NCBI GenBank assembly: GCA_958296125.1
Contig: OY282444.1
Span: 806,001-870,000 of the forward strand
DNA from: an uncultured Poribacteria bacterium
GTDB taxonomy: Bacteria; Poribacteria; WGA-4E; PCPOR2b
Reading direction: 5' to 3'
Length of the DNA stretch: 64,000 nucleotides
Shown: one piece after another, positions 36,970-41,076 of the stretch
How the letters are laid out: each line of letters starts with the position of its first letter
Numbering within the stretch: position 1 is the first letter of the stretch
Program-made: the position numbers and the translations under genes
The notes under the pieces: model-generated
What the model was told of the DNA's origin: nothing
Seen by the model: only the letters and a program-made list of their open reading frames with translations
Databases searched by the model: none

Positions 36970-36999
36970 TTGAAAACTTGACAGACGGTGATGTATAAT
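36970..36999 (+). promoter_or_regulatory. Probable promoter for the ECF sigma leader
   Basis: TTGAAA (36970-36975), 18 bases, TATAAT (36994-36999). A second TTGACA at 36978-36983 is too close to the -10 to be its partner. Transcription would begin near 37006, leaving a leader of over 700 bases to the GTG at 37734. Confidence 0.5.
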
Positions 37000-37215
37000 A
37001 TCGTTTTGTGTGGAGAATAGACGACGATTCAGCGAGAGCTAAATGACTCTAGCAAAAAATAAATCGTCTTAATTTTTTGATGAAGTTTTTAGCAATATCG
37101 GAGTTATATTGCAGTTGTTAATGATGAAGTTCTGAGATACAGGAACTGATCACACTATAATTCTTTTCCAGTTTTTTTCTCTCAACCTATTAACCAGTTA
37201 ACTAGAAAGGAGAAC

Positions 37216-37621
37216 ATGAGAGATGTTTAACCATACAGGATCGAAACGCACACTAGCGTTGAATCCGCTGACAGAGAGAGCGACCGAGTCAACACCGGAA
37301 AACTCCCTCAAATCCTCCGCGCAAGACACTGCGCGCCATCACACACGCACCGGATCTGAGGAACAGAAGGAGATAGCACATAATCCTTCTGGTTGCAGGA
37401 CTATCCTTGACCTATCAAAGGGATTTAGTTTAGCTCAACTCTCAACCCCTCAGAGAGGTACAGATTTGGGGTTCAGGAAGGCATACACAATTCTCCCATT
37501 GATTCCCGAAACAACGTTTTTATCGCCAAAGGAGACGACAGGTGACAGGTATTTCAATATTCGATTTTGGACCAGAGCCCGATTACGAGAAAGGCATAGG
37601 CTACGACAAGATTCCGGGTGA
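37216..37621 (+). other. Leader of the ECF sigma gene with short reading frames
   Basis: AAAGGAG at 37206-37212 precedes a four-codon frame ATG-AGA-GAT-GTT-stop (37216-37230); inside it an ATG at 37223 opens a 132-codon frame to 37621. The 132-residue product is polar and matches nothing I know. A GTG at 37542 with AAAGGAGACGA upstream opens another frame that runs into the sigma gene. This layout resembles a leader with translated small frames rather than normal genes, but a real small protein cannot be excluded. Confidence 0.35.
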
Positions 37622-37624
37622 ATT

Positions 37625-37701
37625 GGCAGGTGCCTCCGGAGCACAGAGATCTGATTATATTGGCTCAATCAGATCGGAGGCTTCGCTAGGCTCGACCTGC
37701 C
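37625..37701 (+). promoter_or_regulatory. Nested hairpin in the ECF sigma leader
   Basis: Three nested perfect stems: GGCAGGT (37625-37631) with ACCTGCC (37695-37701); GCCTCCG (37632-37638) with CGGAGGC (37675-37681); ATCTGATT (37649-37656) with AATCAGAT (37667-37674). It ends about 20 bases before the ribosome site of the sigma gene. Such nesting by chance is unlikely; it suggests an RNA element controlling translation, or a DNA palindrome used by a regulator. Confidence 0.65.
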
Positions 37702-37733
37702 TTGCAACGAGGATAAACCCAAAGGAGACGAGC

Positions 37734-38321
37734 GTGAGACGATCCGATGAAGATCTAATGTTTTCCGTCAAAGAAGGAGATAGCGCAACATTTGAAACAT
37801 TAACCAAACGTCACTACACCAACACATTGAACTTTATTTATCGTTTCGTGAACAATCGTACGCTTGCGGAGGATTTGTGTCAAGAAACGTTTTTGCGTCT
37901 TTGGCGCAGCGCACCGACCTATCAACCGCTTGCCAAGTTTACCACTTTCCTTTATCACATTGCAAAGAATGTTTGTTTGAAGCAGATTGCTAAAGATCAA
38001 CGAACCCCCTACACCTCTTCGCTGGAGGCTCCCGTTGCTAATGATAGCGGCGGTGATTACAACTTATCAGAAGAGATTGCAGATAACCGATATTTGCCGG
38101 AGGAAACGACCATTGCTAGGGAGGCAGATGAAGCCATCCAATCGGCGATTGGTGCCCTGTCCGAAGAGCATCGGTTAGTTTTTGTCTTAACAGAATTACA
38201 AGGGTTATCATACCAAGAAGTTGCTGAGATAGCCCGGTGCCCTGTTGGGACTGTTGCTTCCCGGAAGAATGCAGCTGTCCGGCAGCTCCAAAGGAGGTTA
38301 CATAAGCACTTAGCCCCTTAG
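37734..38321 (+). CDS. ECF-type RNA polymerase sigma factor
   Basis: 195 residues from GTG 37734, which has CCAAAGGAGACGA just upstream. Region 2: DATFETLTKRHY-like stretch then LNFIYRFVNNRTLAEDLCQETFLRLWRSA. Region 4: ALSEEHRLVFVLTELQGLSYQEVAEIARCPVGTVASRKNAAVRQL, a clear helix-turn-helix. An in-frame upstream GTG at 37542 would add 64 residues, but those codons overlap the nested hairpin and match no sigma domain. No anti-sigma factor gene follows; the next gene is the CotH-type protein about 300 bases away, after a strong terminator. Group within ECF not identified. Confidence 0.9.
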   Translation: MRRSDEDLMFSVKEGDSATFETLTKRHYTNTLNFIYRFVNNRTLAEDLCQETFLRLWRSAPTYQPLAKFTTFLYHIAKNVCLKQIAKDQRTPYTSSLEAPVANDSGGDYNLSEEIADNRYLPEETTIAREADEAIQSAIGALSEEHRLVFVLTELQGLSYQEVAEIARCPVGTVASRKNAAVRQLQRRLHKHLAP

Positions 38322-38425: not shown

Positions 38426-38475
38426 TGCCCCTATATCGATTTAATTTGAATTGATATAGGGGCATTTTAGTTTAT
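38426..38475 (+). terminator. Terminator after the ECF sigma gene
   Basis: TGCCCCTATATC (38426-38437) and GATATAGGGGCA (38453-38464), a perfect 12-bp stem with a 15-base AT-rich loop, followed by TTTTAGTTT. It separates the sigma gene from the CotH-type gene, which therefore needs its own promoter. Confidence 0.85.
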
Positions 38476-38619: not shown

Positions 38620-41076
38620 ATGAGACGCAAACATATCATCACCAATCTTTTGGGAATATTGCTTGCCTTTTTAATGTCAAGTGCCGTAAACACCTTAGCA
38701 CAAGATACGCTTTCAAAAGAAGAGAAGCGATTTGACCTCAATAGCAACGGTCAGTTGAGTGAAGCCGAAAGAGAGATTATGATTGAAATAATCGCTCTCG
38801 AAACCTTCACAGGAGTACAATTCACCGAACGGGAAATCAGGGAAGAACACGGTGGCAGCGAGCGAGGTCGTTCCGGTGGTGGACGTGGACCGCGCCGGGC
38901 GGAGAAAATTGTCAACCGTTTTGATACAGATAAGGATGGTAGGTTAAACAATGTAGAGCGAGAAGCCGCTCGCAAATACATCCACGAAAGCCGAGGCGTA
39001 ACCGGTGCGTCACGCCCATCTGGAAGCACATCGCCTCATACAACGCTCGAAGATGATTTGAAAGCGAGCCACGCCACCCAGCCTAACGGCACCCCCGAAC
39101 TCTACGAGGCAAACACACTCCGCACACTCTATCTCCGATTCCACCATGCGGACTGGTACGAACAGCTTGGCGACTTCTATCGAACCGATGTCAATATGCC
39201 GGCAGATTTAATTGTCAATGGAGTGGTCTATCGATCCGTCGGTGTCCGGTTCCGCGGCAGTTCATCCTATTTTACAGTTCAAAATGAGAAAAAGTCGCTC
39301 AACATCGCCGTTGACTACGAAGAAGCCAAACAACGGCTCTACGGCTACAAAACACTGAATCTGCTAAACGGTCATTCCGATCCCTCCTTCCTCCGCGAAA
39401 TTCTCTATTCAAGAATTGCTAGCAACTACATCCCCGCTCCGAAGGCGAACCTCGTTAAACTGGTCATCAACGGGGAAAGCTGGGGGATTTACGTCAACAG
39501 CCAACAATTCAACAAAGATTTCCTCGACGAATGGTTTGGGACCAAAAGGGGAGTTCGCTGGAAGGTGCCACCCGGACGCAACAGCGGCTTGGTTTATAAT
39601 GGAGACCAGCCCTCTGCCTATCAACAATCCTACCAACTCAAAACGAGAGTGGAGGAGGCACCAAACGCTTGGCAGGATCTGATTAACCTATGCAAAGTTC
39701 TTGAAAGAACGCCCGATGACCAACTCGAATCTGCGCTTTCTACGGTTTTCAACATTGATCGGGCACTTTGGTTTCTTGCGCTGGAAAATGTATTCATAGA
39801 CAACGACGGCTATATCAGTCGCGCCAGCGATTACGCTCTCTATCAGGACCCGATGGGTCGCTTCCATCTACTGCCACATGACAGTAACGAGACGTTTCGA
39901 TTTGCCGGTGGCGGTGGTCCGAACTCATGGCAGACCGAGGGACAGATGCTATCTCCTGTTTCTCAGGAAGACGATATGATGCGACCCGTCATCAGTCGTC
40001 TACTTGCCATTCCACACCTACGCGCACGGTATCTCGCTCACATCCGCACCATTGTCAATGAATGGCTCGATTGGGATGTGCTCCAGCCAATTATTGCAGA
40101 ATACCAATTGCTCGTTGATGCCGAAGTGAAGGCGGACGATAAGAAACTCTACGCTTATGAGGCATTTGCCACAAGTCATATCAAAGATCAGGGCGGTGAG
40201 GAAGGTCGCGGTGATAGGCGGGGTGGCAGGGGACGGAGAGCAACACCGAGTTTCAAGCGTTTTATCAAGGAACGGGCAGAATATCTACTCAATCATCCCG
40301 AAATCAACAAGTCGCTACCAACTATTGCCTCCGTCTCCAAGCCCAAAGCACCGATGGCGAACCAACCTGTACGGATCACAACCGAGATTGGTGGAGATGT
40401 TAGCGTCGATGCGGTCATCTTGTATTACGCGTCCGGACGACTGACACCCTTCCTGAGTATCCCGATGTCAAAAGATGGCGCGGTCTACGTGGGTGAGATC
40501 CCTGCTTTTCCCGCTGGAAAGAAAATCCGTTACTATGTCGAAGCTCGCTCTGCTGGATCGGGCGGCGCAACGACGTTTTTCCCAGCCCAAACCGAATTTG
40601 CGCCGTTGACTTACCGCGTCACTGCATCTATCGCCGATAGTTCTCCGGTGGTTATCAACGAGCTGATGGCAAGTAATACGAAAAGTTACGCCGACTCTGA
40701 AGGCGAAAACGACGATTGGATCGAACTCCACAACGTGAGTGATTCTGCGGTTAATCTTTCAGGGAGGTATCTCAGCGATAACCAGAACAATCCGCGTAAG
40801 TGGCAGTTTCCCGACGACACTCAGATTGCCCCCGGCGGTTATCTGATTATTTGGGCAGACGAAGATGGCAGCACCGAATCGGGCCTCCATGCCAACTTCA
40901 AACTCTCTAAGAACGGTGAAACGGTCATGCTCATCGATACGGATCAGCGAGGGAATCAGGTGCTTGACGTGGTTAAATTTAGGGGGCAGCAGGAAGATGT
41001 CGCGCTCGGTCGAATGCCCAATGGCACGGGCAACTTTAAGTCATTAGGAGGGACACCGGGGAAACGGAATCAGTGA
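38620..41076 (+). CDS. Secreted CotH-kinase protein with EF-hands and lamin-tail domain
   Basis: 818 residues. Signal peptide ends near NTLA. Two EF-hand loops (DLNSNGQLSEAE near residue 40 and DTDKDGRLNNVE near 108). CotH kinase-like domain from about 150 to 490: YRSVGVRFRGSSSYF, KSLNIAVDYEEA, HDSNETFRF. A beta domain follows, then a lamin-tail domain near 680-790: VVINELMASNTKSYAD, DDWIELHNVSD, GGYLIIWADEDG. An arginine/glycine-rich stretch (GRGDRRGGRGRR) sits near 535. CotH enzymes phosphorylate spore-coat or other extracellular proteins; here it may modify calcium-binding surface proteins. Strong GAGGAGG site before the ATG. Confidence 0.88.
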   Translation: MRRKHIITNLLGILLAFLMSSAVNTLAQDTLSKEEKRFDLNSNGQLSEAEREIMIEIIALETFTGVQFTEREIREEHGGSERGRSGGGRGPRRAEKIVNRFDTDKDGRLNNVEREAARKYIHESRGVTGASRPSGSTSPHTTLEDDLKASHATQPNGTPELYEANTLRTLYLRFHHADWYEQLGDFYRTDVNMPADLIVNGVVYRSVGVRFRGSSSYFTVQNEKKSLNIAVDYEEAKQRLYGYKTLNLLNGHSDPSFLREILYSRIASNYIPAPKANLVKLVINGESWGIYVNSQQFNKDFLDEWFGTKRGVRWKVPPGRNSGLVYNGDQPSAYQQSYQLKTRVEEAPNAWQDLINLCKVLERTPDDQLESALSTVFNIDRALWFLALENVFIDNDGYISRASDYALYQDPMGRFHLLPHDSNETFRFAGGGGPNSWQTEGQMLSPVSQEDDMMRPVISRLLAIPHLRARYLAHIRTIVNEWLDWDVLQPIIAEYQLLVDAEVKADDKKLYAYEAFATSHIKDQGGEEGRGDRRGGRGRRATPSFKRFIKERAEYLLNHPEINKSLPTIASVSKPKAPMANQPVRITTEIGGDVSVDAVILYYASGRLTPFLSIPMSKDGAVYVGEIPAFPAGKKIRYYVEARSAGSGGATTFFPAQTEFAPLTYRVTASIADSSPVVINELMASNTKSYADSEGENDDWIELHNVSDSAVNLSGRYLSDNQNNPRKWQFPDDTQIAPGGYLIIWADEDGSTESGLHANFKLSKNGETVMLIDTDQRGNQVLDVVKFRGQQEDVALGRMPNGTGNFKSLGGTPGKRNQ

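Follow-up and report, generated by a model that had tools for sequence, protein, structure and literature searches.

The window, a stretch of 64,000 nucleotides (G000:C1:806001-870000), belongs to a 5.16-Mb Poribacteria genome whose lineage we take to be sponge-associated, from what is generally known of the Candidatus Poribacteria group. It carries a gene whose protein contains Sigma70 regions 2 and 4 only, and which thereby qualifies as an ECF sigma factor, of the stress type. A long leader open reading frame, here called ORF A, and an RNA hairpin lie upstream of it (Table 1). The locus was compared within the genus of the window (g1), where the sigma gene is carried by the window's own genome and by G001, G002, G003 and G005, not by G004; within its family (f1), which comprises g1, G007 (locus L041) and G008 (leader-bearing sigma copy L044); and with a sister family of the same order (f3), in which 32 loci have ORF A.

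Table 1. Features of the ORF A-sigma locus, in window positions.
Feature	Position	Strand	Remarks
Promoter-like box TGAAGT-N17-TTATA	37081..37108	+	Conserved; possible autoregulatory promoter (putative assignment)
Shine-Dalgarno AAAGGAG of ORF A	37206..37212	+	Nearly every locus has an SD-like sequence ahead of the ATG of ORF A
ORF A, leader ORF, 132 codons plus TGA (37619-37621)	37223..37621	+	Open, with conserved stop, in 5/5 g1 genomes, L041 and L044
Internal SD and GTG	37526..37544	+	Reads PKET in ORF A; possible start for a sigma form longer by 64 residues
Conserved Arg-rich end of ORF A	37562..37621	+	All Arg codons CGA, AGA or AGG; Ka/Ks 0.20
Conserved hairpin P1, just 3′ of the ORF A stop	37625..37701	+	z -3.8 to -5.2 in five g1 genomes
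Shine-Dalgarno AAAGGAG of sigma	37721..37727	+	AAGGAG invariant in five g1 genomes
ECF sigma factor of 195 aa, counted from the conserved start	37734..38321	+	Sigma70_r2, Sigma70_r4, TIGR02937
Terminator-like hairpin closing the unit	38426..38464	+	18 pairs, then TTTTAGTTTA

The promoter-like box, with the consensus TGAA(T/G)T-N17-TTA(T/A)A, precedes the leader in both families and is also found before the ORF A-less copy L043. Its distance to ORF A is mostly 111-122 nt in f3 and 136-142 nt in f1, and it is located farther upstream in L011 and L051 (253 and 284 nt). A regular expression for the box matched 31 of 38 loci, two of the matches (L069, L078) being spurious, and the reversed pattern matched none of the 38. 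At up to one mismatch, the search of the own genome returned the self site only (the control pattern gave 1+1); a regulon search with the strict pattern likewise gave only the self site in the own genome, and one site each in four of five sister genomes. Autoregulation of the sigma unit through this box is possible. A near-consensus sigma-70 promoter, TTGAAA-N18-TATAAT (11/12), is present at 36970-36999 and would give a long 5′ leader. In many f3 loci a GGGGCA...TGCCCC-like hairpin is located between the promoter-like box and the ribosome site of ORF A (about 4630-4710 in L066, and equivalents). On the downstream side, the CotH-LTD gene at 38620 probably forms a unit of its own.

The initial annotation had drawn attention to a sequence, CCAAAGGAGACGA, found at both 37526 and 37719 and each time followed by a GTG in the same frame. 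Both observations are exact: the GTGs, at 37542 and 37734, are spaced by 192 nt in one frame, the window holds no third copy at up to one mismatch, and none of 100 shuffled windows contained two matches. In the own genome, a search for repeats of the leader returned the site itself and 18 short matches at chance level only. The start aligned to 37734 is an ATG after a GAGGA-type SD in all 17 f3 loci inspected, and an ATG also in L041 and L043, while Ka/Ks over 37734-37913 is 0.10 in g1 (here and below, the g1 values pool comparisons of the own genome with the four others, which are not independent). The start at 37734 is therefore both ancient and general and, as judged from orthologues, most of which have an ATG there, it is the ancestral one.

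The long 5′ region with its four-codon frame (ATG AGA GAT GTT TAA, 37216-37230) had been taken as a sign of leader control. Leader control is supported, but the leader concerned is the conserved 132-codon ORF A, which opens at the overlapping ATG at 37223 and is kept in all five g1 genomes. The ATG of the four-codon frame is only 3 nt from AAAGGAG; as it is lost in one of the five (G005), control by this frame was rejected. ORF A has 132 codons in the five g1 genomes, 53 in L041 and 93 in L044, and its relative in f3 has 74-92 codons, the longer calls in L060, L067 and L071 stemming only from an earlier Met taken by the script. With at least 45 codons and the Arg motif required, ORF A was detected at 39 of 42 sigma loci; by these standards it was not found at L043 and L070, and L077 begins at a contig end. 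L043 (position 5001), the second sigma copy of G008, is without ORF A, starts with an ATG and constitutes a natural control. The ORF A stop precedes the sigma start in f3 by 27, 28 or 29 nt (2, 8 and 22 of 32 loci), and in f1 by 82 or 115 nt; at 15 of 15 further loci checked it lies 27-29 nt upstream. All three relative frames of ORF A and sigma occur in f3, which rules out a frameshift fusion of the two.

A profile built from 11 ORF A members matched 46 of the 84 phylum genomes, one match apiece. Among the 58 genomes searched for both genes, ORF A was present in all 36 that bear the sigma gene (at E <= 7.7e-65; some of the 36 contributed to the profile) and in none of the 22 that do not. The neighbouring genes differ between f1 and f3; therefore the conserved unit is, as far as these comparisons reach, the ORF A-sigma pair itself, two genes and not simply a sigma gene made in two forms. 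No neighbour is common to both families, and neighbouring genes were dropped as a clue to function. None of the 11 ORF A proteins searched matched a Pfam model up to E 10, PF10940 (DUF2618, the SpeFL/orf34 family) included, and neither of the two searched against NCBIfam gave a match. The predicted structure of ORF A has no confident fold (pLDDT 49), and a profile search of the PDB returned one match at chance level. ORF A is a leader gene named by none of the family libraries used here.

Where ORF A overlaps the upstream extension of the sigma frame (37542-37618), Ka/Ks in g1 is 0.20 in the ORF A frame versus 4.56 in the sigma frame. Over 37223-37540 the ORF A frame is free of stops and has a Ka/Ks of 0.86. 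In f3, Ka/Ks of ORF A is 0.15 in the RLWRRHRPRSEQAG region, 0.48 in the N part and 0.67 in the tail (421 pooled pairs). With its own SD and start, ORF A is sequence of the coding type, and its Arg-rich end is, by these ratios, under selection at the protein level. At nearly every f3 locus (L045-L078) the last three residues of the ORF A protein are AFA or ALA, reminiscent of degradation tags; these ends could merely mirror RNA pairing there.

Because of the low Ka/Ks in the ORF A frame of the overlap, the first 'ribosome site' is foremost the PKET codons. The earlier suggestion that this site may belong to a control frame was right insofar as 37526 falls within ORF A. It had also been proposed that sigma is made in two forms. 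In f1, the GTG at 37542 would then give a sigma extended by 64 residues, read through the hairpin, and the second site the short form, an arrangement compatible with leader control. The first SD, the GTG and an open sigma frame are retained in all seven f1 members, in keeping with a long form. The two f1 stop-to-start distances differ by 33 nt, a multiple of 3; Ka/Ks in the sigma frame over 37622-37733 is 0.54 in g1; and passages of PMC5472188 offer a precedent in Streptomyces SigR′, with its unstable extension of 58 residues. The stop-free stretch has a chance probability of 0.11-0.57 per sequence under shuffling, and, conditional on the own sequence, of 0.48-0.64 for each g1 relative. At the protein level, however, the proposal is not supported: against it stand the sigma-frame ratio in the overlap, the first SD and GTG doubling as codons for conserved ORF A residues, and the ATG at the second start in L041 and L043. 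In f3 the ATG and SD are located at the second site, and a stop closes the sigma frame 8 to 54 codons upstream in all 17 loci inspected. We regard production of the long form in f1 as possible but doubtful.

The hairpin itself had been described as three nested perfect stems. All three exist (GGCAGGT 37625-37631 with ACCTGCC 37695-37701; GCCTCCG 37632-37638 with CGGAGGC 37675-37681; GATCTGATT 37648-37656 with AATCAGATC 37667-37675), but the second and third share base 37675, and the three are never all complete together. An 82-nt piece containing the hairpin has a z of -4.18, equalled by 1 of 500 shuffles. The hairpin, which begins three bases past the ORF A stop and leaves 32 bases between its end and sigma, gives z values of -3.8 to -5.2 in all five g1 genomes and of -2.9 in L041, whereas L044, which does have ORF A, lacks a fold like P1 (z +0.9). 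All five g1 genomes share a pairing that consists of GGCAGG:CCTGCC, a variable middle stem and then, in most, CGAAGC:GCTTCG; 94.6% of its cells are paired, with two double changes, and 49 of 500 shuffles scored as high. The whole hairpin as initially drawn pairs 85.5% of cells with zero double changes, and its middle stem, paired in 71%, is not conserved and is private to this genome. The latter fact, and a looser 146-nt piece that folds unremarkably (z -1.59, 16 of 200 shuffles), would suit a hairpin that is a by-product of coding sequence or of chance. This is very improbable given that the fold persists in all five genomes although 15-27 differences separate the others from the own sequence within a 112-nt stretch. 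Conservation of protein sequence through the hairpin, named in the initial annotation as the outcome that would mark the region as coding only, is weak at best at the Ka/Ks of 0.54, and the fold is kept. Rfam gave no match at the gathering score; four matches fell below it.

In f3 the RNA is predicted to form two mutually exclusive structures, one of which hides the sigma SD, at the 32 loci; this was not predicted in g1. In the consensus fold, P1 pairs ORF A codons, (A)GGAGYG.CAAGCAGGC..TCCTCC, with GGAGG..GCCTtcGCTTG..CGCTCCT, so that its 5′ strand corresponds to the codons for PRSEQAG and its 3′ strand contains the anti-SD. P2 is CTCCTC-nnnn-GAGGAG, which starts at the ORF A stop and in which CTCCT pairs with the sigma SD; the CTCCT strand is common to P1 and P2. 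Among 31 distinct rows, 98.3% of cells are paired in P1 and 97.9% in P2. P1 has one double-changed pair (CG 19, UG 8, UA 4), and P2, which hardly varies, gives no covariation support. Covariation is thus thin overall, counting the two double changes in g1, and weighs against a firm reading of the RNA. Searched in f1, the f3 RNA model gave no match; therefore the homology of P1 between the families rests on its position and on a short shared GCAGG arm.

The effect of leader translation was modelled at the 32 f3 loci with the ribosome represented as a 28-nt mask and with crowding of the terminating ribosome on the SD ignored. The mean SD exposure was 0.49 without ribosome. With the A-site 108 to 78 nt upstream of the stop it was 0.36-0.53; it fell to 0.01-0.03 at 72 to 42 nt and was 0.74 with the ribosome at the stop. 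Over the last stretch the exposure was non-monotonic, with 0.65 at a distance of 24 nt from the stop but 0.03 at 12 nt. Bistability of the free state does not extend to every locus, native exposure being 0.07 or less in 6 of the 32. Synonymous recoding of ORF A reduced the modelled exposure from 0.49 to 0.03; the native exposure was reached by 39 of 1280 recodings, 38 of them in nine loci with a native value of 0.13 or less. In the model, therefore, the antisequestor is written into the codons of ORF A beyond what the peptide requires. When the short and full leaders of g1 were folded, no hiding of the SD was found: its exposure was around one half in each ribosome state modelled, barely dependent on ribosome position or on P1, and an SD switch is therefore not predicted for the window itself.

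Taken together, these data suggest, with a probability of roughly 0.65, that ORF A and the RNA hairpin set the level of ECF sigma translation. Leader control within a two-gene unit is favoured because ORF A occurs at 39 of the 42 sigma loci and is strictly paired with sigma; it lies directly upstream of this sigma gene wherever checked, and the hairpin lies between leader and sigma start or overlaps the leader. In f3, two exclusive RNA states would compete, the antisequestor P1 and the short SD-hiding hairpin P2. A ribosome within P1 would close the SD and a ribosome at the ORF A stop would open it, and sigma output would follow translation of the leader. For g1, where SD exposure argues against such a switch, we infer another mode of action: P1 would be retained, but 3′ of the ORF A stop and without a predicted SD-hiding partner, and would most likely bring the sigma start closer to the ORF A stop for ribosomes that reinitiate. 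Alternatively, P1 may be melted by ribosomes starting at the internal GTG. ORF A could also encode a small basic protein with a function of its own, such as a partner of sigma, with gene proximity setting their ratio and the hairpins secondary. Peptide-level selection in the Arg-rich end and the strict pairing with sigma would be expected of such a protein. Yet outside that end ORF A is almost free of constraint in g1, its length ranges from 53 to 132 codons, it has neither a confident fold nor a family match, and codon choice in f3 is tuned to the RNA; this explanation is unlikely.

Translational control through the hairpin, our preferred reading, may extend to what the leader senses. Arg accounts for 44 of the 200 codons formed by the last 40 of ORF A in the five g1 genomes, compared with 5.6% in the long ORFs of the window. 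All 44 are CGA, AGA or AGG, whereas in those long ORFs these three types account for about 37% of the Arg codons; in the N part of ORF A in g1, 13 of 33 Arg codons are of other types. The Arg codons of the f3 motif are almost all CGA, AGA or AGG too. The cluster is positioned just before and into the P1 5′ strand, and slow reading would therefore shift the RNA state; the direction of the effect would hinge on the exact stall point. Tentatively, the leader may be a sensor of arginine or tRNA supply, the pace of ribosomes over the CGA/AGA/AGG run picking between SD-exposing and SD-hiding RNA. Leader translation would then gate a global transcription programme without an adjacent anti-sigma, and in g1 the switch would have been rebuilt, with the overlapping second start carrying ribosomes through the hairpin into sigma. 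We consider this extension rather unlikely.

ECF sigma factors are usually viewed as held by anti-sigma proteins. None was recognised beside the sigma gene, and control of the present ECF sigma factor appears to be located in the leader. The locus offers a concrete, testable translational switch for a lineage known only from metagenomes, and two evolutionary stages that can be compared, with the ORF A stop after or before the hairpin. In the open-access literature, no ECF sigma leader of this kind was found in Poribacteria. Leader ORFs before an ECF sigma gene, leader ORFs with rare Arg codons and alternative structures, and leader ORFs with SD unmasking are each already known; ORF A matches no known family.

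Translation of E. coli rpoE, which encodes an ECF sigma factor, is said to be coupled to that of rseD. The rpoE operon resembles the present locus in having a small leader ORF, rseD, directly before the ECF sigma gene on one transcript, as described in parts of PMC8595263; models of coupling are among the subjects of PMC12548453, in the sections consulted. Unlike that operon, the present locus has no adjacent anti-sigma gene that we could see, and f3 has a competing pair of hairpins. SigR/SigR′ of Streptomyces is likewise an ECF sigma factor with a possible longer form (58-64 residues across the two systems) from an upstream start; however, passages of PMC5472188 describe SigR′ as beginning at an ATG from a second promoter and as demonstrably unstable, whereas the present long form is without support at the protein level. 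In toiL, the uORF of E. coli topAI, translation rearranges RNA that hides a downstream ribosome site, as is proposed here for f3; according to parts of PMC12121999 that system is supported by experiment, whereas the present switch is predicted, and the stress sensed and the gene controlled differ. Finally, orf34 (speFL) of Salmonella speF is a leader ORF with several rare Arg codons in a row, and the downstream gene is controlled there through alternative folds of the mRNA. In the relevant passages of PMC6386406 Rho termination and a long-range helix are demonstrated experimentally, and frequent Arg codons proved no less effective than rare ones. The present leader shares this layout but differs in gene, sequence and family, DUF2618 (PF10940) being unmatched by ORF A.
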